Shown here: one piece after another, positions 8,311 to 43,402 of the stretch | Position numbering within the stretch: position 1 is the first letter of the stretch | How the letters are laid out: each line of letters starts with the position of its first letter | DNA from: Deltaproteobacteria bacterium | Lineage (GTDB): Bacteria; Myxococcota_A; UBA9160; SMWR01 | Assembly: GCA_019310965.1 (NCBI GenBank) | Contig: JAFDDG010000002.1 | Span: forward strand, 30,817-94,816 | Direction: 5' to 3' | Length of the DNA: 64,000 bases | The notes under the pieces: generated by a model | What the model was told of the DNA's origin: nothing | Databases searched by the model: none | What the model saw: the letters and a program-made list of their open reading frames with translations, nothing else | Translations under genes and position numbers: made by a program

Positions 8311-9924
8311 CTACTGCGCTTCGGCCTGCTCGCGCAGCTTGAACTTCATGACCTTGCCGGACGGCGTCGTCGGCAGCTCGTCCACCACCGCGATCCGACG
8401 CGGAACCTTGTAGTTCGCCATGTTCTCGCGACACCACGCGATCACGCTGTCGGGCGTTACGACATGATCCGGCGCCGGCACGACAAAAGCCATTCCGACC
8501 TCGCCGGCCCGCTCGTCCGGCACGCCAATCACCGCCACCTGCGCGAACTGCCCGCTGCCGTAGAGCGTGTTCTCGATCTCGGCGGGGTACACGTTGAAGC
8601 CGCCGTTGATGAACATATCCTTGATGCGATCGGTGATGCGCACGTAGCCGTGCTCGTCCATCACCGCGATGTCGCCAGTGTGCAGCCAGCCATCCGCATC
8701 GATGGTCTTGCGCGTCTCTTCCGTGTCGTCGAAGTAGCCTTGCATCAAGTTATAGCCGCGCACCACGATCTCGCCGGGCTCTCCCCTAGGCACCTCTTTG
8801 CCGTCGGTATCGACGCAGCACACCTCGACATCGGGAATCGCGCGCCCCGAAGTCGTGGCGATGGTTTCCGGATCGTCGTCGAAGCGGCACATGGTAACGA
8901 CGCCGCAGGTCTCGGTGAGGCCGTAGCCGGTGATGATCGTCTCGAAGCCGAGCTCGTCGCGCATGCGGTGGATCAGCTCGACGGGCGTCGGCGCGGCACC
9001 GGTGACGGCGAGGCGCAACGACGACAGGTCGGTGTCGCCGAGCTGCGGCGACGCGAGAAACGACTGGTACAGGGTGGGCGGCCCGGGCAGCATGGAGATC
9101 TTCTCCTTCGCCACCCGCTCGAGCACCTCGGCCGCATCGAAGACGAGGTGTGGGATGATCGTGGCACCGCGCATGATCGCCGACATCCACCCCGCCTTGT
9201 ATCCGAACGAATGGAAGAAGGGGTTGACGACCAGGTAGCGGTCGCCGGCGCGGAGACCCACCACCTCGGTCCAGGTCGCGAAGACTCGAACGTTCTGGCC
9301 GTGCGCGGTCATGACCGCCTTGGGGTTTCCGGTGGTTCCGCTGGTGAAGATGAAATCGGAGAGATCGTCGGGATCCACCGCTTCGGCGCGAGCCCGCGCT
9401 TCCGCCTCGGATACACCTTCGCCGGCGGCCAGAAAAGCCTCCCAGCCCGTGACACCTGCGGCTCCGCCGCCACGCTGCATCGCAGCTCCGGACTCGCCGC
9501 GCAAGGCGATGATGCCCTCGAGATCCGGCAGATCCTGACTGGCGACGGCCGCCACGTAGTCCGTGCCGAGAAACTCGGTCATGGTGCAGACCAGCTTCGC
9601 CCGGCTCTTGCGCAGCACGTAGCCCGCCTCCGGCGCCTTGAAGCGGGTGTTCAACGTGACCAGCACACCGCCAGCGCATTGGAGCCCGATCGCAGCGAAG
9701 ATCCACTCCGCGACGTTCGGGGCCCAGATGCCGACGCGATCACCGGGCTCGACGCCGGCGGCGATGAAGGCGCGAGCGGCGCGCAGCGCCTCGGTCTCGA
9801 GTTCGCGAAAACTCAGTCGAATGTCGCCGTCCTCGAGAGCCGGCGCATCGCCATAACGCTCGGCGGCGCGGAAGACCAGGCGGGGAATCGTGAGGGCGGA
9901 CTCCGGAGCGAGGCTGTCATCCAT
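8311..9924 (-). CDS. fadD3: FadD3-like HIP-CoA synthetase
   Basis: FTSGTTGNPKAVMTAHGQN, NPFFHSFGYKAGWMSAI, MLPGPPTLYQSFL, GYGLTETCGVVTMCR, YVRITDRIKDMFINGGFNVYPAEIE closely resemble mycobacterial FadD3; located beside fadE30 and ipdF. Confidence 0.85.
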   Translation of the reverse strand: MDDSLAPESALTIPRLVFRAAERYGDAPALEDGDIRLSFRELETEALRAARAFIAAGVEPGDRVGIWAPNVAEWIFAAIGLQCAGGVLVTLNTRFKAPEAGYVLRKSRAKLVCTMTEFLGTDYVAAVASQDLPDLEGIIALRGESGAAMQRGGGAAGVTGWEAFLAAGEGVSEAEARARAEAVDPDDLSDFIFTSGTTGNPKAVMTAHGQNVRVFATWTEVVGLRAGDRYLVVNPFFHSFGYKAGWMSAIMRGATIIPHLVFDAAEVLERVAKEKISMLPGPPTLYQSFLASPQLGDTDLSSLRLAVTGAAPTPVELIHRMRDELGFETIITGYGLTETCGVVTMCRFDDDPETIATTSGRAIPDVEVCCVDTDGKEVPRGEPGEIVVRGYNLMQGYFDDTEETRKTIDADGWLHTGDIAVMDEHGYVRITDRIKDMFINGGFNVYPAEIENTLYGSGQFAQVAVIGVPDERAGEVGMAFVVPAPDHVVTPDSVIAWCRENMANYKVPRRIAVVDELPTTPSGKVMKFKLREQAEAQ

Positions 9925-9935
9925 ACGAGCCGTAT
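9923..9935. promoter_or_regulatory. Candidate operator, perfect palindrome ATACG-AGC-CGTAT
   Basis: Between divergent fadD3 and fadE30, overlapping the fadD3 start; same motif at 25.2 and 58.0 kb. Confidence 0.6.
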
Positions 9936-9976
9936 CGTATCATAATGAATTCTTCCCCTTCGCTCCGGGAGCCCCC

Positions 9977-11152
9977 ATGGATCTGCGCTTCACCGACGAG
10001 GACGAGGCCTTCCGCCGCGACGTCGCGGCGTTTCTCGAGGCCGAGCTCGGCGGCCCGTTCAGCGCCGTGCGTCACCGCGGCGGACCCGGCGACGAGAGCG
10101 CACTGATCGACGAGCGAAAGGCCTGGGAGAAACGCCTGGGAGAAGCCGGCTGGATCGGCCTCTCGTGGCCCAAGCCCCTGGGCGGACGCGAGCTGCCGCT
10201 GATGCAGCAGGTGATCTTCTACGAGGAGTACGCGCGCGCCGGTGGACCGGGGCGCGTGAACCACATGGGCGAGAACCTCGTCGCTCCCACGGTCATCGCT
10301 TACGGCAGCGAGGAGCAGAAGCAGCGGTTCCTGCCGCCCATCTTGAAGGGCGAGGCGATCTGGTGTCAGGGCTACTCCGAACCGAACGCCGGCTCGGATC
10401 TCGCCAACGTGCAGACCAAGGCACGACTCGAAGGCGAGGAGTGGATCATCGACGGCCAGAAGGTGTGGACGTCCTGGGCCGAGGCCGCGGACTGGTGCTT
10501 CGTGATCGCGCGCTGCGATCCCGATTCGCAGCGCCACAAGGGACTCGTCTACCTGCTGGTGCCCATGCACCAGCAGGGCGTCGAGCTGCGCCCGATCCTG
10601 CAGATGACCGGTGACGCCGAGTTCTGCGAGACCTTCTTCGACGGCGCCCGCACCGCCAAGGGAAACATCCTCGGGCAACCGGGCGACGGCTGGAAAGTGG
10701 CGATGGCCACACTCGGTTTCGAGCGCGGCGCCTCGACCCTCGGCCAGCAGATGAACTTCCGCCAGGAGCTCGACAGCATCGCCGAGGTCGCGCGCAGCAA
10801 CGGCAAGATCGATGACCCGATCATCCGTCAGCGGCTGGCCGATGCATGGATGGGTCTCGAGATCCAACGCTACAACGCGCTGCGCACGCTCTCCGATTCG
10901 GGCGACGCCGCGGGCGGTGCCGCCATGGTGACGAAGCTTCACTGGGCCAGCTGGCACCGCGATCTCGGCAAGCTGGCCCTCGACGTGCTCGGCCCGGAGG
11001 GAGAGATCGCCGAGGCTTTTCCCTACGCGCTGACTCGCCTGCAGCGAATGGCGCTCTTCGTCCGCTCGGACACGCTCTACGGCGGATCGAATGAAATCCA
11101 GCGCAACATCATCAGCGAGCGTGCCCTCGGCATGCCGCGGGAGGCCCGATGA
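9977..11152 (+). CDS. fadE30: FadE30-like acyl-CoA dehydrogenase
   Basis: YEEYARAGGPGRVNHMGENLVAPTVIAYG, WCQGYSEPNAGSDLANVQT, FERGASTLGQQ, TLYGGSNEIQRNIISERALGMPREA resemble FadE30. Confidence 0.85.
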   Translation: MDLRFTDEDEAFRRDVAAFLEAELGGPFSAVRHRGGPGDESALIDERKAWEKRLGEAGWIGLSWPKPLGGRELPLMQQVIFYEEYARAGGPGRVNHMGENLVAPTVIAYGSEEQKQRFLPPILKGEAIWCQGYSEPNAGSDLANVQTKARLEGEEWIIDGQKVWTSWAEAADWCFVIARCDPDSQRHKGLVYLLVPMHQQGVELRPILQMTGDAEFCETFFDGARTAKGNILGQPGDGWKVAMATLGFERGASTLGQQMNFRQELDSIAEVARSNGKIDDPIIRQRLADAWMGLEIQRYNALRTLSDSGDAAGGAAMVTKLHWASWHRDLGKLALDVLGPEGEIAEAFPYALTRLQRMALFVRSDTLYGGSNEIQRNIISERALGMPREAR

Positions 11153-11931
11153 GCCGCGTGGTTCCGCCCTACCCCGAAGGCCGCGACCTGCTGGCCGGCA
11201 AGACCCTCGTCGTGACCGCAGCAGCCGGCACCGGCATCGGTTTCTGGACGGCACGACGCGCTGCGGAGGAGGGGGCGACCGTTCTCATCTCCGATTTCCA
11301 CGAGCGGCGCCTCGGGGAAGCAGCAGAGCAGATCGAAAAGGCGAGCGGGCAACGTCCCGCGACCTGCTTGTGTGACGTGACGAACGCCGAGCAGGTGGAA
11401 GCTCTCGCCCAGACCGCCATCCGTGAGCTCGGGCAGGTGGACGTACTCGTGAACAATGCCGGGCTCGGGGGCAACGCCAACGTCGTCGACATGACCGACG
11501 AAGCCTGGAACCGGGTGCTCGACATCACGCTGAATGGAACGTTCCGCGTCACCCGTGCCTTTCTGCCGCACATGCTCGAACGCCAGACGGGCGTCGTCGT
11601 GAACAACGCGTCGGTGCTCGGTTGGCGGGCCCAACCGGGGCAATCGCACTATGCAGCGGCCAAGGCCGGCGTAATGGCCTTCACGCGCTGCGTCGCCATG
11701 GAGGCCGCGGAGGCCGGCGTGCGGGTCAACGCAGTTGCGCCGAGCATCGCGAACCACGAGTTCCTGTCGAAGGGCATGCCGGAAGGCCTGATCGAGGAGC
11801 TCTGCGCGAAAGAGGCCTTCGGCCGGGCCGCCGAGCCGTGGGAAGTAGCCAACTGCATCGTCTTTCTGGCCAGCGACTACTCGAGCTACATGACCGGCGA
11901 GATCCTCTCGGTCAGCAGCCAACACCCCTGA
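11149..11931 (+). CDS. ipdF: IpdF-like short-chain dehydrogenase/reductase
   Basis: VVTAAAGTGIG, VLVNNAGLGGNANVVDMTDEAWNRVLDITLNGTFR, VNNASVLGWRAQPGQSHYAAAKAGVMAFTRC, SDYSSYMTGEILSVSSQHP closely resemble IpdF; ATGA overlap with fadE30 stop. Confidence 0.9.
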   Translation: MSRVVPPYPEGRDLLAGKTLVVTAAAGTGIGFWTARRAAEEGATVLISDFHERRLGEAAEQIEKASGQRPATCLCDVTNAEQVEALAQTAIRELGQVDVLVNNAGLGGNANVVDMTDEAWNRVLDITLNGTFRVTRAFLPHMLERQTGVVVNNASVLGWRAQPGQSHYAAAKAGVMAFTRCVAMEAAEAGVRVNAVAPSIANHEFLSKGMPEGLIEELCAKEAFGRAAEPWEVANCIVFLASDYSSYMTGEILSVSSQHP

Positions 11932-11950
11932 TCCGAAAGGACCCCGCCGC

Positions 11951-12412
11951 ATGACCGTGATCTTCGAAACCCCGGCCAAGCTCAAGGAGGCCGTCGGCCA
12001 GCAGCTTGGCACCTCCGAGTGGCTCGAGATCGACCAGAAGCGCATCGACCTCTTCGCCGAGGCCACCGGCGACCACCAGTGGATCCACGTCGATCCGGAG
12101 AAGGCGAAGGACGGCCCCTTCGGCACGACGATCGCACACGGCTACCTCACCCAGTCGCTGGTGAACTTCTTCATGCCGCAGATCATCGAGGTGCGCGGTG
12201 TGAAGATGGGCATCAACTACGGAGCCGACAAGCTGCGCTTCCCGGCTCCAGTGCCGGTGGGCTCGAAAGTGCGCGGCAAGGGCGAGCTCATCGAGGCCAG
12301 CGACACGAAGGACGGCGCCGTCCAGGCGATCGTGCGCGTCGTCGTCGAGATCGAGGGCGGAGAACGACCGGCCTGCGTGATCGACACCATCAGCCGCTTC
12401 TACCCGGCCTGA
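11951..12412 (+). CDS. MaoC-family (R)-enoyl-CoA hydratase
   Basis: FAEATGDHQWIHVDPEKAKDGPFGTTIAHGYLT is the hydratase-2 motif. Confidence 0.92.
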   Translation: MTVIFETPAKLKEAVGQQLGTSEWLEIDQKRIDLFAEATGDHQWIHVDPEKAKDGPFGTTIAHGYLTQSLVNFFMPQIIEVRGVKMGINYGADKLRFPAPVPVGSKVRGKGELIEASDTKDGAVQAIVRVVVEIEGGERPACVIDTISRFYPA

Positions 12413-12420
12413 GGGATGCC

Positions 12421-13200
12421 ATGACCGCCAGCGACCCGCTCGGGCAATTCCGCCTCGACGGCAAAGTGGCCCTCGTCACCGGCGGCAGCCGCGGACTCGG
12501 CAAGGAGCTGGTGCTCGCCTTTGCACGCTGCGGCGCCGACGTGGTGATCGCGAGCCGCAAGGAGGAGAGCTGCGTCGCCCTCGCCGATGCGGTGAAGTCC
12601 GAGACCGGCCGCCGCGCACTGCCCGTCCGCTGCCACGTGGCGAAGTGGAGCGACTGCGATGCGCTGGTCGAGAATGCCCTCGGCGAGTTCGGCAAGGTCG
12701 ACGTGCTGGTGAACAACGCCGGTAGCTCGCCGCTCTACCCGTCCCTCATCGAGATCTCGGAAGAGCTCTACGACAAGGTGATGGGCACCAACTTGAAGGG
12801 TGCCTTTCGACTGTCGGCGTTGCTCGGCACGAAGATGGCCGAGGGCGACGGCGGCTCGATCATCAACGTGAGCAGCATCGGCTCGGTGATGCCGAGTCCC
12901 GGAGAAATCCCCTACGCCGCCGCGAAGGCGGCGCTCAACAACCTGACGGAGGGCATGGCGCGCGCCTTCGCCCCCAAAGTTCGCGTCAACTGCATCATGC
13001 CCGGTGCATTCCTCACCGACATCAGCAAGGCGTGGTCGCCGCAGATGAAGGATGCGCTCACGAGCATGGCGGCGCTCGGCCGTGCCGGCGAGCCCGACGA
13101 GATCGTCGGCGCCGCTCTCTATCTGGCGAGCGACGCCGGCCGCTATTCCACTGGCTCGATCATCAAAGTGGATGGCGGCGCTGCCTACGGGCATGGTTGA
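12421..13200 (+). CDS. SDR family oxidoreductase
   Basis: VALVTGGSRGLGKE, VLVNNAGSS, PYAAAKAALNNLT; ATG at 12421. Confidence 0.92.
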   Translation: MTASDPLGQFRLDGKVALVTGGSRGLGKELVLAFARCGADVVIASRKEESCVALADAVKSETGRRALPVRCHVAKWSDCDALVENALGEFGKVDVLVNNAGSSPLYPSLIEISEELYDKVMGTNLKGAFRLSALLGTKMAEGDGGSIINVSSIGSVMPSPGEIPYAAAKAALNNLTEGMARAFAPKVRVNCIMPGAFLTDISKAWSPQMKDALTSMAALGRAGEPDEIVGAALYLASDAGRYSTGSIIKVDGGAAYGHG

Positions 13201-13684
13201 GCCGCAAGCGATGCTCGCCTGGCTCAACCGCATTGGGATCGCCGCGTCCTCCTCGAAGATCGGCGGCATCGTCTACGACAAGTTGTGCCGGCGCATCGAC
13301 CGCGTGTTGATCCCGCTGACCGGCGCGCGCCTGGCCATGGGCCCGCCGGGCCAGACGCTGCTGCTCACGACCACGGGTGCAAAGAGCGGCAAACCGCGGG
13401 TGGCCTCGCTCGCGTATCTGAACGAAGGCGACGACCTCGTCATCATCGCCTCGAAGGGCGGCGCCCCCGTGCACCCGGGCTGGTATCACAACCTGAAGGC
13501 AGATCCACACACCAGAGTGCAGCACCGCGGCGGCAGTGAAGAACGCATCGCCCGTGAGGCCACCGGCGAAGAGCGCGACCGGCTCTACGCAAGGATGGGC
13601 GGAACGTTCGCGAACTTCCTTGCCTACCAAGAGCGAGCGACGAACCGCCGAATTCCGGTGATGCTGCTGTCGAAGCCTCAGTAA
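13193..13684 (+). CDS. Nitroreductase/deazaflavin (F420)-dependent oxidoreductase family protein
   Basis: LLLTTTGAKSGKPRVASLAYLNEGDDLVIIASKGGAPVHPGWYHNLKADP is the DDN family signature; overlaps the upstream SDR stop. Confidence 0.9.
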   Translation: MVEPQAMLAWLNRIGIAASSSKIGGIVYDKLCRRIDRVLIPLTGARLAMGPPGQTLLLTTTGAKSGKPRVASLAYLNEGDDLVIIASKGGAPVHPGWYHNLKADPHTRVQHRGGSEERIAREATGEERDRLYARMGGTFANFLAYQERATNRRIPVMLLSKPQ

Positions 13685-15510
13685 CGCAGCGGCGGCGGCA
13701 AGAGATCCGTGCAGGCGCCGCCTTCCTGCTGCGCATACTCCGCGGCGCTCAGGACGGATCCACCCCGCACCATCTCGCGATACACCTCACAGCGTTCGGC
13801 CGGCGTCTCGAGGCGTGGATCTCGCGCCACATCCGCGAGCACGGACGCCCGGGTCACGGTGTCTCCGGACATGTGGGTGCCGCCGTCGTCGTCGGTATCC
13901 AGGATCAGGAAGCTGCCACCGCGCGCATCCCATGGCTCCCAGCGCACGAGATTCCCCTCACGCCCCGTGCCCGGATCACCGGTATAGGCGAACTGAGACC
14001 AGTAGGACATCATCGAGCGCGACAGCGCCTCGTCGAGTGCCGCACGATCCGGATCGAAGACGAACGGGGTCGCGGCGCCGAGTGTCAGACGCCCGAACAC
14101 GAAGGGGATCTCCAGCGCATGTCCCGCACCCAGCCAGTGCGCAATGTCGAGCCACAGGAGCCGCGGCTCGTGATCCCAATCGAATCGGTAGCCGTAGACA
14201 CTCGGCCCCTGCACCCCGCGCATCGCCGCCGCGGGCTCGTCGACGCCCATCGCCTTCCAGACCCGACTGGCGAAATCCGTCGTCGCCTCGTACATCCTCT
14301 CGTTGCGCAGGGCGACGGGGAGCTGAAACAGGTGGCGCACGTGTGGCGACGTGAAGAGCTGAAACGTGCGCACCTCGTCGCGGTTCGACCCCAGGATGAC
14401 CGGAACCCGATTGTAGTCGCCGCGACGGTATGCCTCGAGTGATCCGAAACGAGAGAGCACGAAGCCGTCCTGCAGCAGGCGCGGGTTCTCGTACATGGCA
14501 GCCATCTCGTCCGGCAGGTAGAGCCGCAGGAAATCCGGCGCCGGCACACCGCGCAGCAGCTCTGCGATCTCCTCGTGCGTCATGGACGCGACCCTCGCCT
14601 TGCCGGTCGCACGATCGACAGCTCGCCTTTCGCGCTCGAGCAGGCGCAGCAGGATCTCGCTCGAGCTCGCGTCGTCGCCGGGCTCGGGATCATCCACATA
14701 GTTCTCGGCCTGGGCCAGCGTCTTGCCGTGCGCCCAGCCGCTCTGGGAGATCGCACGCTGGAACAGACCCTTCGCACGGGGCGAGCGCAACAGAGCCAGC
14801 ACGTTGGTACCGCCGGCCGACTCGCCGAAGAGGGTCACGCGAGTCGGATCCCCGCCAAACGCCGCAATGTTGTCCCGCACCCACTCGAGAGCGGCGATGG
14901 CATCCAGGGTGCCGTAGTTGCCGGAGCGGTCCTCGGGGCTCGCATCGGCAGCCTGCAGCGCCGGATGCCGGAACCAGCCGAACCCCCCCAGGCGATACTG
15001 AAACGACACCACCACCACCCGGCGCTCACCGGCCAACGCGCTGCCGTCGTAGAGCGCGGCGTGGCCTTGGCTGTTGCCCCCACCGTGAATCCACACCATC
15101 ACCGGCAACGCCAGCAGGCCCTCGGGCACCTCCGCCGGCTCGAAACGCGGTGCATACACGTTGAGGGTCAGGCAATCCTCGCTGCCGGCGGGCTCTCCCG
15201 CGGGCCCCTCGGCGCCGACGGGTCCGGCGAGCTGCATGCACGGCGCGCCGAAGGTCAGCGCCTCGCGCGTACCGCTCCAGGGCTCGGCGGGCCGAGGCGC
15301 GCGCCAGCGCAGCTCTCCGACGGGCGGTTGCGCGAACGGAACGCCGAGCCAGGTGTGACCTCCCTCGGCATCGGCAAGGCCGATCAGCTCGCCGGCGGAG
15401 GTGGAACGCCGAGCCGCCGGATCGGGCAAGGGGGCCGCGGGCACCGACCCACCACACGCGCAGAGCCATGAGGCGAGAAGCAGCAGCGCGGGCAGCGGAC
15501 GTCGCACCAC
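13678..15510 (-). CDS. Type B carboxylesterase, probable lipoprotein
   Basis: N-terminal LLLASWLCACGG lipobox-like; EDCLTLNVYAP, FGGDPTRVTLFGESAGG. Confidence 0.9.
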   Translation of the reverse strand: MVRRPLPALLLLASWLCACGGSVPAAPLPDPAARRSTSAGELIGLADAEGGHTWLGVPFAQPPVGELRWRAPRPAEPWSGTREALTFGAPCMQLAGPVGAEGPAGEPAGSEDCLTLNVYAPRFEPAEVPEGLLALPVMVWIHGGGNSQGHAALYDGSALAGERRVVVVSFQYRLGGFGWFRHPALQAADASPEDRSGNYGTLDAIAALEWVRDNIAAFGGDPTRVTLFGESAGGTNVLALLRSPRAKGLFQRAISQSGWAHGKTLAQAENYVDDPEPGDDASSSEILLRLLERERRAVDRATGKARVASMTHEEIAELLRGVPAPDFLRLYLPDEMAAMYENPRLLQDGFVLSRFGSLEAYRRGDYNRVPVILGSNRDEVRTFQLFTSPHVRHLFQLPVALRNERMYEATTDFASRVWKAMGVDEPAAAMRGVQGPSVYGYRFDWDHEPRLLWLDIAHWLGAGHALEIPFVFGRLTLGAATPFVFDPDRAALDEALSRSMMSYWSQFAYTGDPGTGREGNLVRWEPWDARGGSFLILDTDDDGGTHMSGDTVTRASVLADVARDPRLETPAERCEVYREMVRGGSVLSAAEYAQQEGGACTDLLPPPLRY

Positions 15511-15835
15511 ACGACGCTAGCCAATCGAGACACAGCCCTGGAGAGGGCGAGCGAGCGAGATTCGCGCCTGCCGCGGCCCCGGCCAGCGGAGCCCGATCCT
15601 CTGGGCGCCACCAGCCGCGCTTTTCTCGGCTGCATCGGATGGCAGAACGGGGGACAGCGAGCTAACCTCCTGCGGTCGGAAGTCGGGGTGACGCCACACC
15701 GCGCCATGCGCGCCCGCGAATTTCCCTGGCCCGGCAACGTCCATCTCCGTGCAGCCCAGTTTCGTTTCCAACCCTCGCTCGCTGCCCCCGGGGAACCGGC
15801 GGCGACCGGGCACATCTCATCAGAATGGGGAGAAC

Positions 15836-16153
15836 ATGAAGGATTCCAAGAAGTCGATGGACCGGCGGGAGTTTCTCGCCGCAGGCCTGACCACGGCAGC
15901 ACTGCTTCCGGGTGCGCTGCTCACAGCGAAGACGGCGCAGGCCAGCGAAAAACTCGTCACCGCCTTGCCGGGTGCCGCGCCGATGGTCACCGCCCTGCAG
16001 TACGTGGACGAGTCGGCCAAGGCAGACCAGAACTGCAGCAACTGCCAGCTCTACGTCGCCGGCCAGGAGGGCACCGGCAAGTGCCAGATCTTCCCCATGG
16101 GTGTGGTGAAGGAGACCGGCTACTGCGTGTCCTGGGCCCTGAAAGTCGCCTGA
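15836..16153 (+). CDS. High-potential iron-sulfur protein with Tat signal
   Basis: DRREFLAAGLTTAALLPGALLTAKTAQA twin-Arg leader; NCSNCQLY...GKCQIFPMGVVKETGYCVSW four-Cys HiPIP pattern. Confidence 0.9.
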   Translation: MKDSKKSMDRREFLAAGLTTAALLPGALLTAKTAQASEKLVTALPGAAPMVTALQYVDESAKADQNCSNCQLYVAGQEGTGKCQIFPMGVVKETGYCVSWALKVA

Positions 16154-16176
16154 GCCCACCAGCTCACACGATCCCA

Positions 16177-16209
16177 AGCGACCGATCGGCGGCGAGCCGG
16201 TCGGTCGCT
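16177..16209. terminator. Hairpin between convergent genes, likely terminator
   Basis: AGCGACCGATCGGC-GGCGA-GCCGGTCGGTCGCT: 14-nt arms with one mismatch (potential wobble); no strong T tract follows. Confidence 0.6.
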
Positions 16210-16230
16210 CCCGTTTGGGCCCTCGGCGCG

Positions 16231-17367
16231 TTAGAAGACGAGCCCTGCGATCCGTTCGCGGTGCCAGCTGGCGTCGCCGAGGAAGGTCTCGGTCGACTTG
16301 GCGCGCTTGAAGTGCAGATGCGGATCGTACTCCCAGGTGAAGCCGATGCCGCCAAAGATCTGGATCGCATCCGCCGCGCAGCGGAAGTAGGCCTCGGAGC
16401 AGGTGGCCTTGGCGAGGGACGCCGCCACCGGAAGCGCGTCGCCATCTTCGGCCGCGACGCAGCCCGCGTAGTAGGCGGCGGAGCGCGCGCACTCTACGCT
16501 GAGCATCATGTCGGCGGCCTTGTGCTTGAGCGCCTGGAACGAGCCGATCACGCGGCCGAACTGCACGCGCTCCTTCGCGTACTCGACGGAGAGGTCGAGG
16601 CAGCGCTGCGCCCCTCCCACCTGCTCGGCGGAGACGCCGACGGCGGCCAGATCGAGCACTTTGCGCAGCGCCGGCCACGCGCTGCCGGCCTCACCGAGAC
16701 TCGCCTCGGCGGGAACCCGTACGCCGTCGAGCCGAAACTCTGCCTGGCGGCGCGTCTGATCGACGGTGGGGAGCGCGGTGATGGTCAGGCCCGCTGCGTC
16801 CGACGGTACGAGAAATAGGCTCACGCCGTCTTCCCCGCTGCTGCCTGCGGCGCGGGCGGCCACCACGATCAGATCGGCGTTGGCCCCATCCGGAACAAAA
16901 CGCTTGGTGCCCGTCAACACGAAGTCGCCACCGTCCGGCGTCGCGACGCTGGCAATGCCATCCGCATCCCAGCGTCCGGAGGGCTCGCTGAAGGCGAGCG
17001 TACAGCGCAGCTGGCCTTCGGCCAGCGCCGGCAGGTGCTCCTGCTTCTGGGCAACGCTACCCGCCACGAGCAGCGCGTTGCCACCGAGACACACCGTCGA
17101 GAAGAAGGGCGCGCAGAGCAACGCCTCGCCCGTCGTTTCGAGCAGCGCCACCAGCTCGACCCACGAGAGGCCGAGCCCGCCGTACTCCTCGGGCACCAGC
17201 AGTGCCGGCCAACCGAGCTCGCTACCGATGCGCTTCCACACATCGGCGTCGTAGCCCTGCTCGCTGGTCATGGCCGCGCGCACCTGCTCCGACGAGCAAT
17301 GATCGGCGAGAAAGCCACGCGCCATGGCGCGCAGCTCTTCCTGCTCCTCGTTGAAGGCAAAGTTCAC
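16231..17367 (-). CDS. Acyl-CoA dehydrogenase, FadE32/FadE33-like subunit
   Basis: VNFAFNEEQEELRAMARGFL (GTG start), AFSEPSG, RVIGSFQALKHKAADMML, QIFGGIGFTWEYDPHLHFKRAK. Confidence 0.8.
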   Translation of the reverse strand: MNFAFNEEQEELRAMARGFLADHCSSEQVRAAMTSEQGYDADVWKRIGSELGWPALLVPEEYGGLGLSWVELVALLETTGEALLCAPFFSTVCLGGNALLVAGSVAQKQEHLPALAEGQLRCTLAFSEPSGRWDADGIASVATPDGGDFVLTGTKRFVPDGANADLIVVAARAAGSSGEDGVSLFLVPSDAAGLTITALPTVDQTRRQAEFRLDGVRVPAEASLGEAGSAWPALRKVLDLAAVGVSAEQVGGAQRCLDLSVEYAKERVQFGRVIGSFQALKHKAADMMLSVECARSAAYYAGCVAAEDGDALPVAASLAKATCSEAYFRCAADAIQIFGGIGFTWEYDPHLHFKRAKSTETFLGDASWHRERIAGLVF

Positions 17368-17377
17368 GCCGGGCTCC

Positions 17378-18280
17378 TCAAGTGCCGTGGACCTTCTGGG
17401 GAGGCACGCGCTTGCCGAGTAACTCGGCAACGGCTCCGCCGACTTCGTCCGGCGCCCAGCGCGCGCCCTTGTCGACCACCTCGCCGGAGCGCCAGCCATC
17501 CGCAATGCTGATCTCGCCACCCGCCAGCTCGAAGATGCAACCGGTCACATCCCTAGACTCGGAGCTACCGAGCCAGACCACGAGAGGCGAGATGTTGCCC
17601 GGATTCATGGCGTCGAAACCATCCTCGGGCTTCGCCATCATGTCGGCAAACACCTCTTCCGTCATGCGCGTGCGCGCGGAGGGAGCAATGGCGTTCGACG
17701 TGATGCCGTAGCGGCCGAGCTCGGCGGCCTGGTTGAGGGTCAGCGTCGCGATACCGGCCTTTGCCGCCGAGTAGCTGCTCTGGCCGATGCTGCCCTGGAG
17801 GCCCGCACCCGAGCTCGTATTGATGATGCGCGCGTCGACCGGATTGCCGGCCTTCGACTCGCCGCGCCAGTACTCGCAGGCGTGGCGTGCGAGACAGAAA
17901 TGGCCCTTCAGATGCACGCGGATGATCGCGTCCCACTCCTCTTCGCTGCACGAGACGAACATGCGGTCGCGCACGAAGCCCGCGTTGTTCACCACGATAT
18001 CGAGCCGCCCGAAGGCGTCGAGCGTCTGCTTCACCAGCGCGCCGGTCTGCTCCCAATCCGCCACATCGGCACCGTTGGCAATGGCTTCGCCGCCAGCTGC
18101 GCGGATGGCGTCCACCACCTCGCCCGCGGGGCCATCGGTACCCCCGCTGCCGTCGAGCTCGACGCCGATATCGTTCACCACCACCTTCGCGCCCTCGGCG
18201 GCGAAGGCGAGCGCGTGCTCGCGCCCGATGCCGCGCGCGGCGCCGGTGATGATGACCACCCGTCCGTCACAGATTCCCAT
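17378..18280 (-). CDS. SDR resembling Rv3548c/17beta-HSD-type
   Basis: VVIITGAARGIGREHALAFAAEGAKVVVNDIGVELDGSGG...RIINTSSGAGLQGSIGQSSYSAAKAGIATLTL...NAIAPSARTRMTEEVFADMM. Confidence 0.85.
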   Translation of the reverse strand: MGICDGRVVIITGAARGIGREHALAFAAEGAKVVVNDIGVELDGSGGTDGPAGEVVDAIRAAGGEAIANGADVADWEQTGALVKQTLDAFGRLDIVVNNAGFVRDRMFVSCSEEEWDAIIRVHLKGHFCLARHACEYWRGESKAGNPVDARIINTSSGAGLQGSIGQSSYSAAKAGIATLTLNQAAELGRYGITSNAIAPSARTRMTEEVFADMMAKPEDGFDAMNPGNISPLVVWLGSSESRDVTGCIFELAGGEISIADGWRSGEVVDKGARWAPDEVGGAVAELLGKRVPPQKVHGT

Positions 18281-18301
18281 CTTTTCGTTTCCTTCCTTCG
18301 G

Positions 18302-19459
18302 CTAGAGCCGCTCGATGATGGTGACATTCGCCTGGCCGCCGCCTTCGCACATGGTCTGGAGGCCGTAGCGGCCATCGGTGCGCTCGAGCTCGTTGACGAG
18401 CGTGGCCATGAGCCGCGTGCCGGTGGCGCCGATGGGGTGACCGAGCGCGATGGCACCGCCATTCACGTTGACCTTCTCCATGTCCCAGTGGGTTTCCTTC
18501 TGCCAGGCGAGCACGGGCGACGCGAAGGCCTCGTTGATCTCGACCAGATCGATGTCCGAGGGCTTCAGGCCCGCCTTCTCGAGCGCGAACTGCGTGGCGG
18601 GAATCGGCGCAGTCAACATGTAGATCGGATCGTCGGCCCGCACGCTGATGTGGTGCACGCGCGCGCGCGGCGCGAGACCGTGATCCTTCACGGCCTGCTC
18701 CGACGCCACCAGCAACGCGGTCGCACCGTCCGAGATCTGGCTCGCCAGTGCAGCCGTGAGGCGCCCACCTTCCTGCAGCGGCTGGAGCGAGGCCAGCTTC
18801 TCGAGCGTGCTGCCGCGCCGCGGACCTTCGTCTCTGGTCACGTCGCCATACGGAACGATCTCGTTGTCGAAGCGACCCTCATCGATGGCGCGATTCGCGC
18901 GCTCGTGGCTCTCGAGCGCGAACTTCTCCATGTCGAGGCGGGAGATGTCCCACTTCTCCGCGATCATCTCGGCGCCGCGGAACTGTGAAACCTCCTGAGT
19001 GCCGAAGCGGTCGACCCAGCCCTTGGATCCCGAGAACGGATCCGTGATGCCGAGCGGCTCCGCTGCCGTCATCGCGTAGGAGATCGGGATCGTGCTCATA
19101 TTCTGCACGCCGCCGGCGACGATCAGGTCTGCCGTGCCACTTAACACGGCCTGCGACGCAAAATGCACCGATTGCTGGGACGAGCCACACTGGCGATCAA
19201 TCGTCACCCCCGGCACGTGGAGCGGCAGACCGGCCGCGAGCCAGCAGGTCCGTGCAATGTCACCCGCCTGGCTCCCGAGCGTGTCACAGCAGCCGAAGAT
19301 GACGTCCTCGACGGCATTCGGGTCGACGCCCGTGCGTTGCATCAGTGCCTTCAGCACGTGAGCACCGAGATCCGCAGAGTGCGCGCTGGCGAGTCCGCCA
19401 CCGCGCTTCCCGATGGGGGTACGAACTGCGTCGATGATGTAGGCCTCGGCCATGGTCAC
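18302..19459 (-). CDS. fadA6: FadA6-like thiolase
   Basis: AYIIDAVRTPIGKRGGGLA, TIDRQCGSSQQSVHFASQAV, GLQTMCEGGGQANVTIIERL closely resemble FadA6. Confidence 0.9.
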   Translation of the reverse strand: MTMAEAYIIDAVRTPIGKRGGGLASAHSADLGAHVLKALMQRTGVDPNAVEDVIFGCCDTLGSQAGDIARTCWLAAGLPLHVPGVTIDRQCGSSQQSVHFASQAVLSGTADLIVAGGVQNMSTIPISYAMTAAEPLGITDPFSGSKGWVDRFGTQEVSQFRGAEMIAEKWDISRLDMEKFALESHERANRAIDEGRFDNEIVPYGDVTRDEGPRRGSTLEKLASLQPLQEGGRLTAALASQISDGATALLVASEQAVKDHGLAPRARVHHISVRADDPIYMLTAPIPATQFALEKAGLKPSDIDLVEINEAFASPVLAWQKETHWDMEKVNVNGGAIALGHPIGATGTRLMATLVNELERTDGRYGLQTMCEGGGQANVTIIERL

Positions 19460-20514
19460 TCTCCTCTAAAGGTCCGGCCGGGTCCGAGCCGCGCGCTCGC
19501 TTCGAGCACCCGCTCTTCGACCCGACTGCGATGAAAATCGTTGCGGCCCCACGCCTGCTCGAGCGACCAGGCACGGCGCATCCAGATGTGCAGATCCTGC
19601 TCCCAGGTGTAGCCGAGGGCGCCGTGCACCTGAAGCGCCTGCCGCGAAGCGAACTGGGCCGCGTCGGCGGCCGCCACCTTCGCCATCGAGACGTGCAGGC
19701 TGCGGTCGGAGACACTGCGCGCCACGGAATGCGCCGCACGGTGCACCACCGGCCGCGCGTACTCGAGCTTCACCTTGCAGTTCGCAAGCATGTGCTTTAC
19801 CGCCTGGAACGAGCCGATGGGCTTGCCGAATTGCTGGCGCTGCTCCGCATACTCGGCAGCCAGCGTGATCAACTTGTCGGTGGCACCGACCAGCTGGGCG
19901 GCCGCCGCAAGGGCGCCACGATCCAGAGCCGCAGCCCACAGACTGCGCCCTGCGTCGCCCGCGGCGACCCGGGTGGCGTCGCCGGCGTCGAAGTTCACCT
20001 TGAAGAGCCGCCGCGACGGGTCGTTCGCGGGCTGTGCCACGATCTCCGCGGAGTCCGGGGCCACGGCGTGCACCTCGTCGCCGCGCTGGAGCAACAGCAG
20101 GTGGGACACGTCGGCGTCGACCACCAGAGGGGAGACCTCGTGCCCCACCCCGACGATCGCATCGCCGCCTCCGATGCGCGGCAACCACTCGCCGGCGAGC
20201 GCTTCGTCGCCGAGTTCGACGAGCAGGGGCGCCGCGACCGCCGCCGTCGCGATCACCGGCTCGGGCAACGCCGCGCGTCCCGCCTCCTCGAAGAGCAGCA
20301 CCGAGTCGATCTCGCTCATCCCCATGCCGTCGTGGGCCTCAGGGACGAGCAGCCCCGGCACCCCCAGCTCGGCGAGCTGTGCCCAGAGTGCGGGAGTGTG
20401 ACTGCGACCCTCGTCCCACGCCTTGCGAATCACCTCGGGGGTGCACTCGTTCGAGAGAAAGTCGCGCAGCGTCGTCTGGAACAGCAGCTGGTCTTCGTCG
20501 AAAGTAAATCGCAC
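19456..20514 (-). CDS. Acyl-CoA dehydrogenase, FadE32/FadE33-like subunit
   Basis: VRFTFDEDQLLFQTTLRDFL (GTG start), KPIGSFQAVKHMLANCKVKLEYAR, QVHGALGYTWEQDLHIWMRRA. Confidence 0.8.
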   Translation of the reverse strand: MRFTFDEDQLLFQTTLRDFLSNECTPEVIRKAWDEGRSHTPALWAQLAELGVPGLLVPEAHDGMGMSEIDSVLLFEEAGRAALPEPVIATAAVAAPLLVELGDEALAGEWLPRIGGGDAIVGVGHEVSPLVVDADVSHLLLLQRGDEVHAVAPDSAEIVAQPANDPSRRLFKVNFDAGDATRVAAGDAGRSLWAAALDRGALAAAAQLVGATDKLITLAAEYAEQRQQFGKPIGSFQAVKHMLANCKVKLEYARPVVHRAAHSVARSVSDRSLHVSMAKVAAADAAQFASRQALQVHGALGYTWEQDLHIWMRRAWSLEQAWGRNDFHRSRVEERVLEASARLGPGRTFRGE

Positions 20515-20516
20515 GG

Positions 20517-21677
20517 CTACTTCCTCGGCAGGCCGAGAATGCGCTCGGCGATGATATTGCGCTGGATCTCGTTGGTCCCCGCGTAGATGGGACCTGCCAA
20601 CGCGAAGATGTAACCGTCGAGCCACTCACCGACGCCCTGCGCCTCGGAAGCCTGCGGCAGGAGCTCCGCGCGCCAGCCGAGAATCTCGAGCGCCACTTCG
20701 TGCATCTCGACGTCGAGCTCCGACCAGAAGATCTTGTTGAGCGACGCCTCCGCGCCGATCTTGCCACCTTCGAGCAGCCGCGAGACCGTGCGGTAGGTGT
20801 CGAGGGTATAGGCCTCGGCTCGCATCCAGCAGTCGACGACGCGGCGCTTGAGGCCCGGATCGCAGCTCCCCTCGTTTTCCTTGTAGAGCGCGACGAGCTT
20901 CGCCGCGGTGTCCTGGAAGCGCGCGGGGCTGCGCAGCATGAGCCCGCGCTCGAAGCCCGCCGTCGACATGGAGACGTTCCAGCCCTTGCCCTCTTCGCCG
21001 AGGAGGTGATCGACCGAGACCCGCGCATCGTCGAAGAAGACCTCCGCAAAGGCCGCCTTGTGGTTGAGCTTCTCGATGGGGCGCACCGTGATGCCCGGTG
21101 CGTCGAGCGGACACAGAATGAAGGAGAGCCCGCGGTGCCGCTCCGAGTCGGGATCTGTGCGGAACATGCCGAAGAGCCAGTGCGCGTAGGCGCCACGGGA
21201 GGCCCAGGTCTTCTGGCCGTTTATGACGAAGTGATCGCCGTCGCGAATCGCCGTTGCCTGGATGTTGGCCATGTCGCTGCCAGCGTTGGGCTCGCTCCAG
21301 CCCTGGGCCCACACCTCTTCACTGGAGGCCATCTTCGGCAAGAAACGCGCCTTCTGCTCCGGGGTGCCGTACTCCATGATGGTCGGGCCGAGGAGAAAGA
21401 TGCCGTTCTGGTTCACGCGCGCGGGCGCCTTCGCTCGGAAGTACTCTTCCTCGAAGACCAGCCACTCGAGCAGGTTCGCCCCACGGCCGCCGTACTCGAC
21501 GGGCCACGGCACCATGGCAAACCCCCCGGCCTGGAGCTGCTTCTCCCACTCGCGGTGCTCCTCGAAGCCTTCTTTCGTGTCGAAGCTCTTGAGCGGGCGG
21601 CTCGGCACGTTGGCCTCGAGCCAGGTGCGCGCCTCCTTGCGGAAGGCCTCCTGCTCCGCGGTGTAGACCAGATCCAT
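20517..21677 (-). CDS. fadE31: FadE31-like acyl-CoA dehydrogenase
   Basis: FEEEYFRAKAPARVNQNG, SSEEVWAQGWSEPNAGSD, LRSPARFQDTAAKLVALYK, FALAGPIYAGTNEIQRNIIAERILGLPRK resemble FadE31; ATG at 21677. Confidence 0.85.
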   Translation of the reverse strand: MDLVYTAEQEAFRKEARTWLEANVPSRPLKSFDTKEGFEEHREWEKQLQAGGFAMVPWPVEYGGRGANLLEWLVFEEEYFRAKAPARVNQNGIFLLGPTIMEYGTPEQKARFLPKMASSEEVWAQGWSEPNAGSDMANIQATAIRDGDHFVINGQKTWASRGAYAHWLFGMFRTDPDSERHRGLSFILCPLDAPGITVRPIEKLNHKAAFAEVFFDDARVSVDHLLGEEGKGWNVSMSTAGFERGLMLRSPARFQDTAAKLVALYKENEGSCDPGLKRRVVDCWMRAEAYTLDTYRTVSRLLEGGKIGAEASLNKIFWSELDVEMHEVALEILGWRAELLPQASEAQGVGEWLDGYIFALAGPIYAGTNEIQRNIIAERILGLPRK

Positions 21678-22438
21678 CAGCCGCCTTCCTTTTCGAAGTC
21701 CGCGTCGCGTTTCTCGACGAAGGCGTCTCGCGCCTCCTGCGAGTCTTCCTCGGTGTACAGCTCGAAGGTAAAGCCCTGCTCGAAGCGGTAGCTGTCCTTG
21801 GGATCGAGGAGCTCGATGCCGTTCAACGACCACTTGGCCAACCGCAGCGCCTTGCCGCTCTTGCTGGCAATGTTGCGGGCCAGCTCGAACGCCGCATCGC
21901 GGAGCTTCTCTTTCGGCACCACCGACTCGACGCCGCCCAGCCGGTAGGCCTCTTGAGCATCGATGGGCTCGCCGGTGTAGAGCATGCGCCGCGCCTTCTG
22001 CATGCCGAACATGCGCATCGTGTGAGTGGCGGCGCCCAGCGCGCCGCGATCGATCTCGGTGAGCGCAAAGGTCGCGTCCTCGGAAGCAATCACGATGTCC
22101 GAGTTGCCCGCCACGCCGAGACCACCGCCGATGCAATAGCCGTGGACGGCGGAGATGACCGGAACGGGACAATCGTAGACTGCCGCGAAGGTGTCGTAAC
22201 AACCGCGGCTCGCGGCGACGATCTTGGTTCCGTCCTCCGCCAGCTCCTTGATGTCGACTCCCGCCTGGAAGCCACGCCCCTCCGCGCGAATCACCACGCA
22301 GTTCACATCGGGGCGGCCGCCAAAGGTCTTCACCGCATCGGCGAAGGTGAACCAATCCTTGCTGTTCAAGGCATTCACCGGCGGGTTGTTGATTACGATC
22401 TCGGCAATGCCGTCCGAGGCAGAAGTGTCGATGGCCAT
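21677..22438 (-). CDS. echA20: EchA20-like crotonase-fold ring hydrolase
   Basis: INNPPVNALNSKDWFTFADAV, VVIRAEGRGFQAGVDIKEL, GYCIGGGLGVAGNSDIVIASEDATFALTEIDRGALGAATH, RFEQGFTFELYTEEDSQEARDAFVEK. Confidence 0.9.
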   Translation of the reverse strand: MAIDTSASDGIAEIVINNPPVNALNSKDWFTFADAVKTFGGRPDVNCVVIRAEGRGFQAGVDIKELAEDGTKIVAASRGCYDTFAAVYDCPVPVISAVHGYCIGGGLGVAGNSDIVIASEDATFALTEIDRGALGAATHTMRMFGMQKARRMLYTGEPIDAQEAYRLGGVESVVPKEKLRDAAFELARNIASKSGKALRLAKWSLNGIELLDPKDSYRFEQGFTFELYTEEDSQEARDAFVEKRDADFEKEGG

Positions 22439-22446
22439 GGGTCTCC

Positions 22447-23502
22447 TCAGGCTCCCAGCTGTTTCAGCGCGAGCTCGGCTTCTTCCACCATGCGCCCCAC
22501 CAGCTCGGCGCAGGTTGGGCGGTCGTCGATCATGCCGGCAACACTGCCACTCGGCAGGTAGCCGTTCACCGGGTCGCCATCGTTCATGGCGAGCTTCGCC
22601 AACATCGGCGCGTTCGCGGCCAGCAGCATCTGGGAGCGCGTGAGCCGCTGGTTCTTGCGCATGGCGAGCCCCGACTTGAGCAGCTCGGGAATCGATGCCC
22701 CCGTCAGCCGTCGCAGCTCGAGCGCGCTGCGAAACGCCAGCCACAAGCGGCCGACGGGCCCCTTGCCGGCGAGCTCGTCGACCAACTCGTTGGTCACCAC
22801 CCGCTGCGGCAGGCCGTCGATTTCTCGTGTGACGATCACGTCGTCGACGCTGGCCGCGAGGTAGCGGTCCGTCGTGATCTCGGGAACCGGGCTTTCCCGG
22901 GTGAGCAGGAAGCGCGTACCCATGGCGATGCCCTCCGCTCCGAGGGCCAGCGCCGCGACCAGACCACGACCGTCCCGAAAGCCGCCGGCCGCGAGGATGG
23001 GGACCGAGACGGCGTCTGCGGCTGCGGAGACCAGGAGCGACGTCGGCGTGGCGCCCGTGTGGCCGCCCCCCTCACTGCCCTGCACGATGATGATGTCAGC
23101 GCCGAGCTTCTCTGCCTTCAGCGCGTGCTTCACGGCGCCGCAGGTCGGCACGCAGACGACGCCGCCGTCCTTGAGGCGTTGGATCAGCTCGGCGTTGGGA
23201 GCGCGGTTGTAGCCCGCGGCCTTCACCCCCTGACGAACGATCGCAGCGATGATGACGTCCGCACCCGGCGCATCCATCAGGAAATTCACGCCGAAGGGTG
23301 CATCCGTGAGCTCCTTGAGGCGCAGGATCTCGGACTCAACGTCGTCCGGCGGAATCGTGGCCGCGCCGAGAAAGCCGAACCCTCCCCCGTTGCACACACC
23401 CGCCACCAGCTCGGGCGTCGACACCCATCCCATGCCGGTCTGGATGATCGGATAAGAGGAGCCCAACAATTCGGTGACGCGGGTCTTGAGAGCGGGAGAC
23501 AC
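22447..23502 (-). CDS. ipdC: IpdC-like flavoprotein (nitronate monooxygenase superfamily)
   Basis: YPIIQTGMGWVSTPELVAGVCNGGGFGFLGAATI, DIIIVQGSEGGGHTGATPTSLL, VPILAAGGFRDGRGLVAALALGAEGIAMGTRFLLT; GTG start. Confidence 0.9.
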   Translation of the reverse strand: MSPALKTRVTELLGSSYPIIQTGMGWVSTPELVAGVCNGGGFGFLGAATIPPDDVESEILRLKELTDAPFGVNFLMDAPGADVIIAAIVRQGVKAAGYNRAPNAELIQRLKDGGVVCVPTCGAVKHALKAEKLGADIIIVQGSEGGGHTGATPTSLLVSAAADAVSVPILAAGGFRDGRGLVAALALGAEGIAMGTRFLLTRESPVPEITTDRYLAASVDDVIVTREIDGLPQRVVTNELVDELAGKGPVGRLWLAFRSALELRRLTGASIPELLKSGLAMRKNQRLTRSQMLLAANAPMLAKLAMNDGDPVNGYLPSGSVAGMIDDRPTCAELVGRMVEEAELALKQLGA

Positions 23503-23527
23503 AGGGGGGACCTCCGGCTGCAGCGGG

Positions 23528-24289
23528 CTAAGCCGGCACCTCGTTGTTGCAGAAGCCCTTGGGATCGATGACCTCACGGATCCAGCGAAGCTCGTCGGCG
23601 TCGGGCTCCCGACTCGTCGGCACGTCGCCCTCGATCACGAGCTCGAAGCCGGTCTGCTCGACGATCTCGTCTACGCTGACCCACGGGTGCACGGAGCGCA
23701 GCCGCATGCGCCGATCCGGCGTCTGGAAATCGAAGACGCCGAGGTTCGAGATCACGCGACGCAAGTCGTGAAAACGCGCCGCCTCACCGAGCTCGCTGGC
23801 GCGGTCGTTGCCGACGCCCGACACGACATCCACCTTCTCGACGAACGTCTTCGTGGAATGATTCGGCACCCAGTAGCTGGTCAGGTGGCAGATCGTGTTG
23901 CCCGGCGCGCCGCGCATGCCGAGGAGCTGCGCCTTCGGCTTCTCGTGCGGCCCGATACATGCGAAGTTCTGATTGCCGTAGCGATCGATCTGACTCGCCA
24001 CCATCACGACGTGGCGCTTGCCGTTCCACACCAGATCGAAGATGTTCGCAAAGGGCATCCAGGCTTCCGACACGGGCCCCGTATCCGGCTTGCCGCTCAC
24101 CGGCAGGGGCTCTTCCAGCAGCGTCGCGGTGCCATCCGTCATCAACAGCTCCGGGGCAAACGTCGCCTTCGCAAGCCGAGCACCGACCGCGGGCACGGTT
24201 CCGAATGAGCTGGCAAGGATCTCCCCGTCGCCGCGAAACGCTTCCGCCACGGCCACCGCACAGATTTCAGCTCGAGTTGAATCAGCCAC
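23528..24289 (-). CDS. ipdB: IpdB-like CoA-transferase-fold ring-hydrolase subunit
   Basis: TRAEICAVAVAEAFRGDGEILASSFGTVPAVGARLAKATFAPELLMTDG, VDVVSGVGNDRA, YRV-like VISNLGVFDFQTPDRRMRLRSVHPWVS; GTG start, overlaps ipdA stop. Confidence 0.9.
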   Translation of the reverse strand: MADSTRAEICAVAVAEAFRGDGEILASSFGTVPAVGARLAKATFAPELLMTDGTATLLEEPLPVSGKPDTGPVSEAWMPFANIFDLVWNGKRHVVMVASQIDRYGNQNFACIGPHEKPKAQLLGMRGAPGNTICHLTSYWVPNHSTKTFVEKVDVVSGVGNDRASELGEAARFHDLRRVISNLGVFDFQTPDRRMRLRSVHPWVSVDEIVEQTGFELVIEGDVPTSREPDADELRWIREVIDPKGFCNNEVPA

Positions 24290-25148
24290 GGGCTCGCTCC
24301 TCGGCACGCTCCTTGATCGCGGCCTGGTATTCCTCTTCGGGGACATCGAGGTAACGCGTCTTGAACGCCTCCCATGCCTCCGGATCCTTCGCCGTCGCGG
24401 CGTACTCCTTCTGGAAGGCTTCGTCCCGGTCGTAGTCGGGCGGGCACTCGGTGAAATGCGCACCGTTCGGTGTCTCGACGACCCCGTCGACCAGCGTGCG
24501 ATTGATGCGCATGGTGTAGAGCGCACCCTCCTTGGCGAGCTGCTCGGTCGGGACGAGCTTCTCGACCGACATGAAACGCTGCTTTGCCGCGAGGCAGAAG
24601 AGATCGTCGAAATACAGATCGGGTCCGAGGAACTGTCCGTTGCCCCGTGTGTCGCCGCGATTCATGTGGATGATCGCGGCGTCGAGCTCGAGGGCCGGCA
24701 TGGCCAGCAGCTCTTCGCCGTCGTCGTAGGGCGAGCGCACGGTGCGCAGATCCGGGTTGATCTTCGTCACGTCCGAGCCGAGACCCGCGCGGGTCGGCAG
24801 AAACGGCAGTCGATACGCCGCGGCGCGCAGCCCCCACTGGAGCATACCCTCGTCGAGCTCGGCCGCCTGGAACGAAGCGGCCTGCCGCGCCTTGCGGAAG
24901 TGCGGCTCCAAGGCGATCGAATCCAGCGATACGAAGCCGTAGATCAGCTTCTTGACCTTGCCGTACTTGCAGAGGAGCCCTGCGTCGGGGCCGCCGTAGG
25001 TGACGACCGTCAAGTCCTTCAACGGGGAACGCAGGATCTCGCGCACCAGGGCCATGGGCTTGCGGCGCGAGCCCCAGCCACCGATGCCGAGGGTCATGCC
25101 ATCCCGAAGCTCGGCCACCACAGCGGCCGAGGTCATGCGCTTGTCCAT
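24282..25148 (-). CDS. ipdA: IpdA-like CoA-transferase-fold ring-hydrolase subunit
   Basis: MTLGIGGWGSRRKPMALVREILRSPLKDLTVVTYGGPDAGLLCKYGKVKKLIYGFVSLDSIAL, ELDEGMLQWGLRAAAYRLPFLPTRAGLGSD. Confidence 0.92.
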   Translation of the reverse strand: MDKRMTSAAVVAELRDGMTLGIGGWGSRRKPMALVREILRSPLKDLTVVTYGGPDAGLLCKYGKVKKLIYGFVSLDSIALEPHFRKARQAASFQAAELDEGMLQWGLRAAAYRLPFLPTRAGLGSDVTKINPDLRTVRSPYDDGEELLAMPALELDAAIIHMNRGDTRGNGQFLGPDLYFDDLFCLAAKQRFMSVEKLVPTEQLAKEGALYTMRINRTLVDGVVETPNGAHFTECPPDYDRDEAFQKEYAATAKDPEAWEAFKTRYLDVPEEEYQAAIKERAEERARG

Positions 25149-39670: not shown

Positions 39671-39731
39671 TTCTCACCAGAGCAGGGCGCCCAGCGCTCC
39701 TCGTGCTCGTCGAACAGCCGGGTCTCGAGAC

Positions 39732-40880: not shown

Positions 40881-40893
40881 GGCGGGTCCCTGT

Positions 40894-42303: not shown

Positions 42304-42358
42304 CTCAATTCTCTCGCTTCTCCGAATGGGTGCGCGGTGAATGCGGCACCGGGGCTCG

Positions 42359-43342: not shown

Positions 43343-43402
43343 CGTTCGTTCCCTCGTTGATCCTTGGCCCACGCGCACGCGGCGCTTGCGGGAGCGGATG
43401 CG

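Follow-up and report, generated by a model that had tools for sequence, protein, structure and literature searches.

Does an uncultured member of the Myxococcota degrade the C and D rings of steroids and, if so, where would the steroid intermediate HIP, with which such a pathway begins, come from? The question is raised by a 64,000-base stretch of DNA (the window), which spans positions 30817–94816 and thus forms the 3′ part of the 94,816-base contig JAFDDG010000002.1 (contig C114 of metagenome-assembled genome (MAG) G000; assembly GCA_019310965.1). Codon-based gene calling gave 63 genes in the window. The host MAG comprises 4.66 Mb in 158 contigs and is estimated to be 90.2% complete and 4.3% contaminated. 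We conclude that the window very probably encodes a seemingly complete module for degrading the C and D rings of steroids (HIP degradation), likely to take HIP to central metabolites. This reading is based on sequence, gene order, orthology and conservation across the class.

The initial annotation had described a near-complete HIP catabolic gene set at 8311–25148 of the window. Indeed, all 12 genes that it named (encoding FadD3, FadE30, IpdF, an Rv3548c-type short-chain dehydrogenase/reductase (SDR), FadA6, FadE31, FadE32, FadE33, EchA20, IpdC, IpdB and IpdA) are intact open reading frames within this interval. All 12 are also reciprocal best hits of Rhodococcus hoagii genes, at 41–71% identity, in a comparison with the fetched cluster loci rather than the full R. 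hoagii genome. Five of the products (FadD3, the IpdF-type SDR, the Rv3548c-type SDR, the FadA6-type thiolase and the EchA20-type crotonase) scored above NCBIfam curated equivalog or subfamily cut-offs (Table 1). IpdA, IpdB, IpdC and EchA20 grouped with proteins of steroid clusters, not with generic CoA-transferases or crotonases. To the 12 genes we add that of a MaoC-type hydratase, which belongs to the HIP set.

We compared IpdA and IpdB with proteins of solved structure. For IpdA, the best match was solved IpdAB (3e-106), with the next family, glutaconate CoA-transferase, at 3e-23; for IpdB, the corresponding values were 4e-74 and 9e-16. The Glu of the VESG motif is the nucleophile of CoA-transferases. 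At the position of this residue of glutaconate CoA-transferase, the window IpdB has Thr, as do both solved IpdB chains (entries 6co6 and 6con, which we take to be IpdAB of RHA1 and Mycobacterium tuberculosis). Glu100 of the window IpdA, within DEGML, aligns with the catalytic Glu of 6co6, which is Ala in entry 6coj. The pair is, thus, predicted to be a hydrolase of the IpdAB type rather than a class I CoA-transferase. A second ipdAB copy of R. hoagii was nearer to the window IpdA and IpdB (67% and 58%) than was the copy in its main cluster (56% and 49%); two ipdAB copies, as found in R. hoagii, have been reported in R. equi (PMC5380842).

Nine of the genes form one run on the minus strand, ipdA-ipdB-ipdC-echA20-fadE31-fadE32-fadA6-SDR-fadE33, with gaps of 0–26 bases, and fadE30-ipdF-MaoC lie beside it. 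The orthologs of IpdC and FadE30–33 are in conserved order. The order of the run is the same in Comamonas CNB-2 and Steroidobacter, as implied by locus numbers in PMC5380842, and Novosphingobium plasmid pNL2 is colinear with it, as is a Sphingobium plasmid as far as read. However, in proteobacterial scd/tes clusters a tesB/hsaC extradiol dioxygenase gene directly precedes ipdA, scdN lies between ipdB and ipdC, and hsaABDEFG are adjacent, whereas the window has none of these arrangements. In addition, fadE30-ipdF-MaoC are turned round in the window and, unlike in scd/tes clusters, an Ltp3-type thiolase has been added to the HIP operon in most relatives from the class. No ScdN was found in the window operon, and its best matches on the other contigs read were only 30–36% identical; ScdN is absent from the KstR2 genes listed in PMC5380842 and therefore does not define the HIP module as a whole. 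All published catalytic genes of the KstR2 regulon of M. tuberculosis and Rhodococcus except Rv3549c have a counterpart in the window, but the gene order differs. KstR2 itself was not recognized among the window genes scanned, the search for regulators being confined to annotated window genes. HIP clusters of Acidimicrobiia MAGs contain some of the nearest IpdA relatives outside the Myxococcota (~70%) and have FadE30, IpdF, EchA20 and MaoC nearby, but their gene order differs from that of the window and their other HIP genes are mostly 42–66% identical.

As a separate observation, plasmid pVa1 of Vibrio alfacsensis carries tesB-like, ipdAB, scdN-like, ipdC, echA20, fadE31/32 and fadA6 genes in order, in contrast to a 2016 survey in which steroid genes were not found in 186 marine Vibrio genomes (PMC4810484).

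Table 1. Genes of the predicted HIP module and adjoining genes in the window, with proposed functions and supporting matches (model scores in bits versus curated cut-off; percentages are identities, for reciprocal best hits to R. hoagii).
Gene and proposed product	Position	Strand	Evidence
fadD3, HIP-CoA ligase	8311..9924	-	NF005801 FadD3 equivalog 729.8 vs 657; reciprocal best hit 52%
fadE30 / scdC2, acyl-CoA dehydrogenase	9977..11152	+	reciprocal best hit 58%; Novosphingobium pNL2 gene in same relative place, 57%
ipdF / scdG, 5-OH HIC-CoA oxidizing SDR	11149..11931	+	PRK07831 equivalog 430 vs 336; reciprocal best hit 63%; pNL2 67%
MaoC-type hydratase, in place of Comamonas scdD	11951..12412	+	PF01575; 63% to MaoC gene after ipdF in pNL2
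SDR adjoining module	12421..13200	+	generic SDR matches only; no reciprocal best hit
fadE33 / scdC1, acyl-CoA dehydrogenase	16231..17367	-	reciprocal best hit 41%; IpdE2 model 213, under cut-off 450
Rv3548c-type SDR	17378..18280	-	PRK07791 491 vs 373; reciprocal best hit 67%
fadA6 / scdF, beta-keto-CoA thiolase	18302..19453	-	PRK07801 695 vs 591; reciprocal best hit 71%
fadE32, MOODA-CoA dehydrogenase subunit	19456..20514	-	reciprocal best hit 42%; conserved order
fadE31, acyl-CoA dehydrogenase	20517..21677	-	reciprocal best hit 54%; pNL2 62%
echA20 / scdY, ring-D hydrolase	21677..22438	-	PRK07938 357 vs 260; reciprocal best hit 49%
ipdC / scdK, nitronate-monooxygenase-fold reductase	22447..23502	-	PF03060; reciprocal best hit 47%; pNL2 50%
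ipdB / scdL2, ring-C hydrolase beta subunit	23528..24256	-	6co6_B, E 4e-74; Thr at VESG Glu position
ipdA / scdL1, ring-C hydrolase alpha subunit	24282..25148	-	6co6_A, E 3e-106; Glu100 in DEGML
Ltp3-type thiolase, divergent here	29446..30630	+	PRK06059 691 vs 424; within HIP operon in most class relatives

In the pathway that we propose, FadD3 would convert HIP to HIP-CoA, the propionyl arm of which would be shortened by FadE30/FadE33, the MaoC hydratase and a thiolase to give 5-OH HIC-CoA. IpdF and IpdC would then lead to HIEC-CoA, EchA20 would hydrolyse ring D and IpdAB would hydrolyse ring C. Release of acetyl-CoA by FadA6 would yield MOODA-CoA, the last oxidation of which would be started by FadE32 (with FadE31). 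The final cut, to propionyl-CoA and succinyl-CoA, would fall to a thiolase acting on a 2-methyl-3-keto substrate, perhaps the Ltp3-type one, because SCP2-type thiolases accept such substrates.

We next turn to the distribution of the module. The operon is conserved across dozens of Myxococcota MAGs at ~52–92% identity, and in most of these the Ltp3-type thiolase gene is either flanked by fadE32 and fadA6 or located immediately across from ipdA. In the class of the host, which we take to be GTDB UBA9160, we sampled 72 genomes, each at least 85% complete. IpdA was present in 59 of them, always as a single copy (63–100% identity); of the 43 best genomes, 38 have it. In a sample of the whole phylum, IpdA was found in 35 of 40 genomes of the class versus 12 of 151 of the rest (Fisher 1e-22), though these counts, like those of ring-A genes below, are of genomes, not of independent events, and gaps in MAGs add noise.

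Genes for ring A were distributed differently. Proteobacterial extradiol dioxygenases encoded beside ipdA score 227–293 against the curated HsaC cut-off of 450, and we therefore did not use this cut-off, at which HsaC is found in 0 of 72 class genomes, and rejected that count as proof of absence. Instead, any match at 1e-15 was counted as HsaC/BphC-type, and HsaD was searched for separately. HsaC-type matches occurred in 21 of the 72 class genomes, 17 of them IpdA-positive, and the two genes were not associated within the class (Fisher p = 1.0). In contrast, in the family of R. hoagii, used as a control in the same search, IpdA was present in 44 of 61 genomes and HsaC in 44 of those 44 (versus 17 of 59 in the Myxococcota class; Fisher 3e-15). 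HsaD was found in eight class genomes, all IpdA- and HsaC-positive; in five of the eight, the region around the HsaC match contained hsaA, hsaC, hsaD and hsaE together, in some cases with hsaF and hsaG. Ring-A meta-cleavage clusters of the hsaA-C-D-E type (some with F and G), at ~40–55% identity, were seen in a few genomes of the class (G067, G009, G057, G026 and G054). It is probable, if far from certain, that the C/D-ring module is a core trait of the whole class, most members of which have no recognized ring-A enzymes and would therefore live on hydrindane leftovers of other degraders or use an undescribed ring A/B route.

Several points weigh against a HIP pathway as drawn above. All reactions assigned to the host, and the order in which they would proceed, are modelled on work in other bacteria (PMC5380842). 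FadE32 and FadE33 are just 41–42% identical to their R. hoagii counterparts and fall under the IpdE2 cut-off, and neither ScdN nor the second thiolase of proteobacterial clusters has a clear counterpart on the contigs read. Among the IpdA-positive class genomes, 42 of 59 are without an HsaC/BphC-type enzyme and 51 of 59 without HsaD. Finally, the host genome is 90% complete, and absences elsewhere in it are therefore soft.

How, then, would HIP arise? The initial annotation saw no ring A/B genes in the window, and we recognized none there either. The search of the rest of the genome for hsaABCD and kstD gave a mixed result: KstD-like and KshA-like genes and HsaA-like/extradiol pairs are present, but HsaD is missing (no match at E 1e-40), as is a steroid-clade HsaC. 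Such genes might belong to an unrecognized or oxygen-independent (2,3-seco) route from rings A/B to HIP, using KstD-like, KshA_C-like, P450 and distant HsaA/extradiol enzymes, a quite conceivable explanation that nevertheless falls short of probable. Contig C16 has two adjacent KstD-like genes, and the best structural match of the first is 7p18, a 3-oxosteroid 1-dehydrogenase, at 1e-144; however, with 44% and 42% identity to R. hoagii KstD, both are under curated cut-offs. The six KshA_C Rieske genes of the genome are consistent with this route, though their scores are modest (88–136 bits versus ~300 in R. hoagii). Contig C94 carries paralogs of FadD3 (62%) and the Rv3548c-type SDR (69%), and the second FadD of the window recurs there in two copies. 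It also encodes two P450s and an HsaA-like/extradiol pair, and has a KshA_C Rieske gene at its end. The two HsaC-like extradiol enzymes of the genome score 232–245 bits, within the proteobacterial TesB range (227–293), yet group apart from the HsaC/TesB clade in the tree. The HsaA-like/extradiol pairs (on C94 and C25) were accordingly rejected as ring-A genes, given the tree and the lack of HsaD. In a MAG of the same genus (G025, which matches MAG NP36; contig C61, 6537–11674), the large subunit gene of a molybdenum hydroxylase of the CO dehydrogenase type lies two genes before a KstD-like gene, possibly forming an oxygen-independent steroid hydroxylation pair. Aerobic and anaerobic routes both end in HIP (PMC5790920).

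Alternatively, most of these Myxococcota may not open rings A/B at all, taking up HIP-type hydrindanes from other steroid degraders. We regard such cross-feeding as possible but somewhat doubtful. It would explain the many IpdA-positive genomes without HsaC-type enzymes or HsaD, as opposed to the control family, and a review notes transient extracellular build-up of intermediates and possible cross-feeding (PMC8399759). On the other hand, about half of the IpdA-positive class genomes have a KstD-like gene at at least 40% identity, and KshA_C Rieske genes were present in four of the four Myxococcota genomes searched; both would be superfluous for a pure scavenger. Nor was a HIP importer identified.

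It is unlikely that the substrate is a non-steroid hydrindane or another branched cyclic acid and that the operon shares only ancestry with HIP catabolism. The near-universal retention of the operon in the class, its lack of association with ring-A dioxygenase genes and the added Ltp3-type thiolase would fit such a substrate, but no HIP-specific step has been lost (those of EchA20 and IpdAB are among the ones retained), the proteins show reciprocal orthology and conserved site residues, and all eight class genomes with HsaD carry IpdA. Despite the 4.3% contamination estimate, we dismiss the idea that the contig stems from a steroid degrader among the Proteobacteria or Actinobacteria and was wrongly binned, because NP36, an independent MAG from this genus, has the same operon with proteins 77–92% identical and shared neighbours, IpdA is present in 58 class genomes besides the host (NP36 among them), and IpdA falls among Myxococcota sequences in the tree.

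Sequence relationships place the Gram-negative host in the Myxococcota. In named genomes, the nearest IpdA relatives are from 'Deltaproteobacteria', Myxococcales and Myxococcota MAGs at 70–87%, one of them carrying the name UBA9160, and in the tree the window IpdA pairs with that of NP36 (100/98), although deeper forks are poorly supported. This bears out the Gram-negative, non-actinobacterial host proposed in the initial annotation from GreB, HiPIP and PilZ proteins. GreA/GreB-type and HiPIP genes in the window have Pfam matches, but PilZ was not confirmed: the one candidate scanned (62291–63019) is without a Pfam match, the scan having covered part of the window genes.

The enzymes and the operon were already known; what looks new is their occurrence in this phylum, their near-universal presence across one class and the lost linkage to ring-A genes. 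In a metagenome survey, Actinobacteria and Proteobacteria were the only phyla to which a complete steroid gene set was assigned, and other phyla yielded no hsaC (PMC5790920). We found no report of steroid degradation of this kind in Myxococcota in the open literature (subscription papers and preprints lay outside this scope), and the passages retrieved on Myxococcota from deadwood and from activated sludge do not mention steroid catabolism. A C/D-ring half that is near-universal in a Myxococcota class, with a few members also having hsaA-C-D-E(-F-G), widens the range of organisms that may recycle sterol carbon, and offers a testable case that different organisms can run the two pathway halves. 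This near-universal presence, largely uncoupled from Hsa genes, had not been seen in the initial annotation.

Some further genes were noted. At 59523–61147 of the window, a thiolase-like gene overlaps a gene of the OB-fold/zinc-ribbon ChsH2 type, a build as in the Ltp2-ChsH2 side-chain aldolase; we rejected the pair as Ltp2-ChsH2, the thiolase-like product matching its best structure, 6ok1, at family level only and falling under NCBIfam cut-offs. A small hydratase-like gene (56186–56692) has no relative in the PDB. On contig C63 (1–6008), a second EchA20 (313 bits versus 260) and a second IpdF (343 versus 336) are encoded beside a TetR-like gene, judged by eye, and an alcohol-dehydrogenase-like gene. 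In a second acyl-CoA run in the window (38915–44593), a crotonase and a thiolase are joined by an acyl-CoA dehydrogenase pair and by a protein bearing ChsH2-type domains; the crotonase and thiolase genes also adjoin the HIP operon in NP36.

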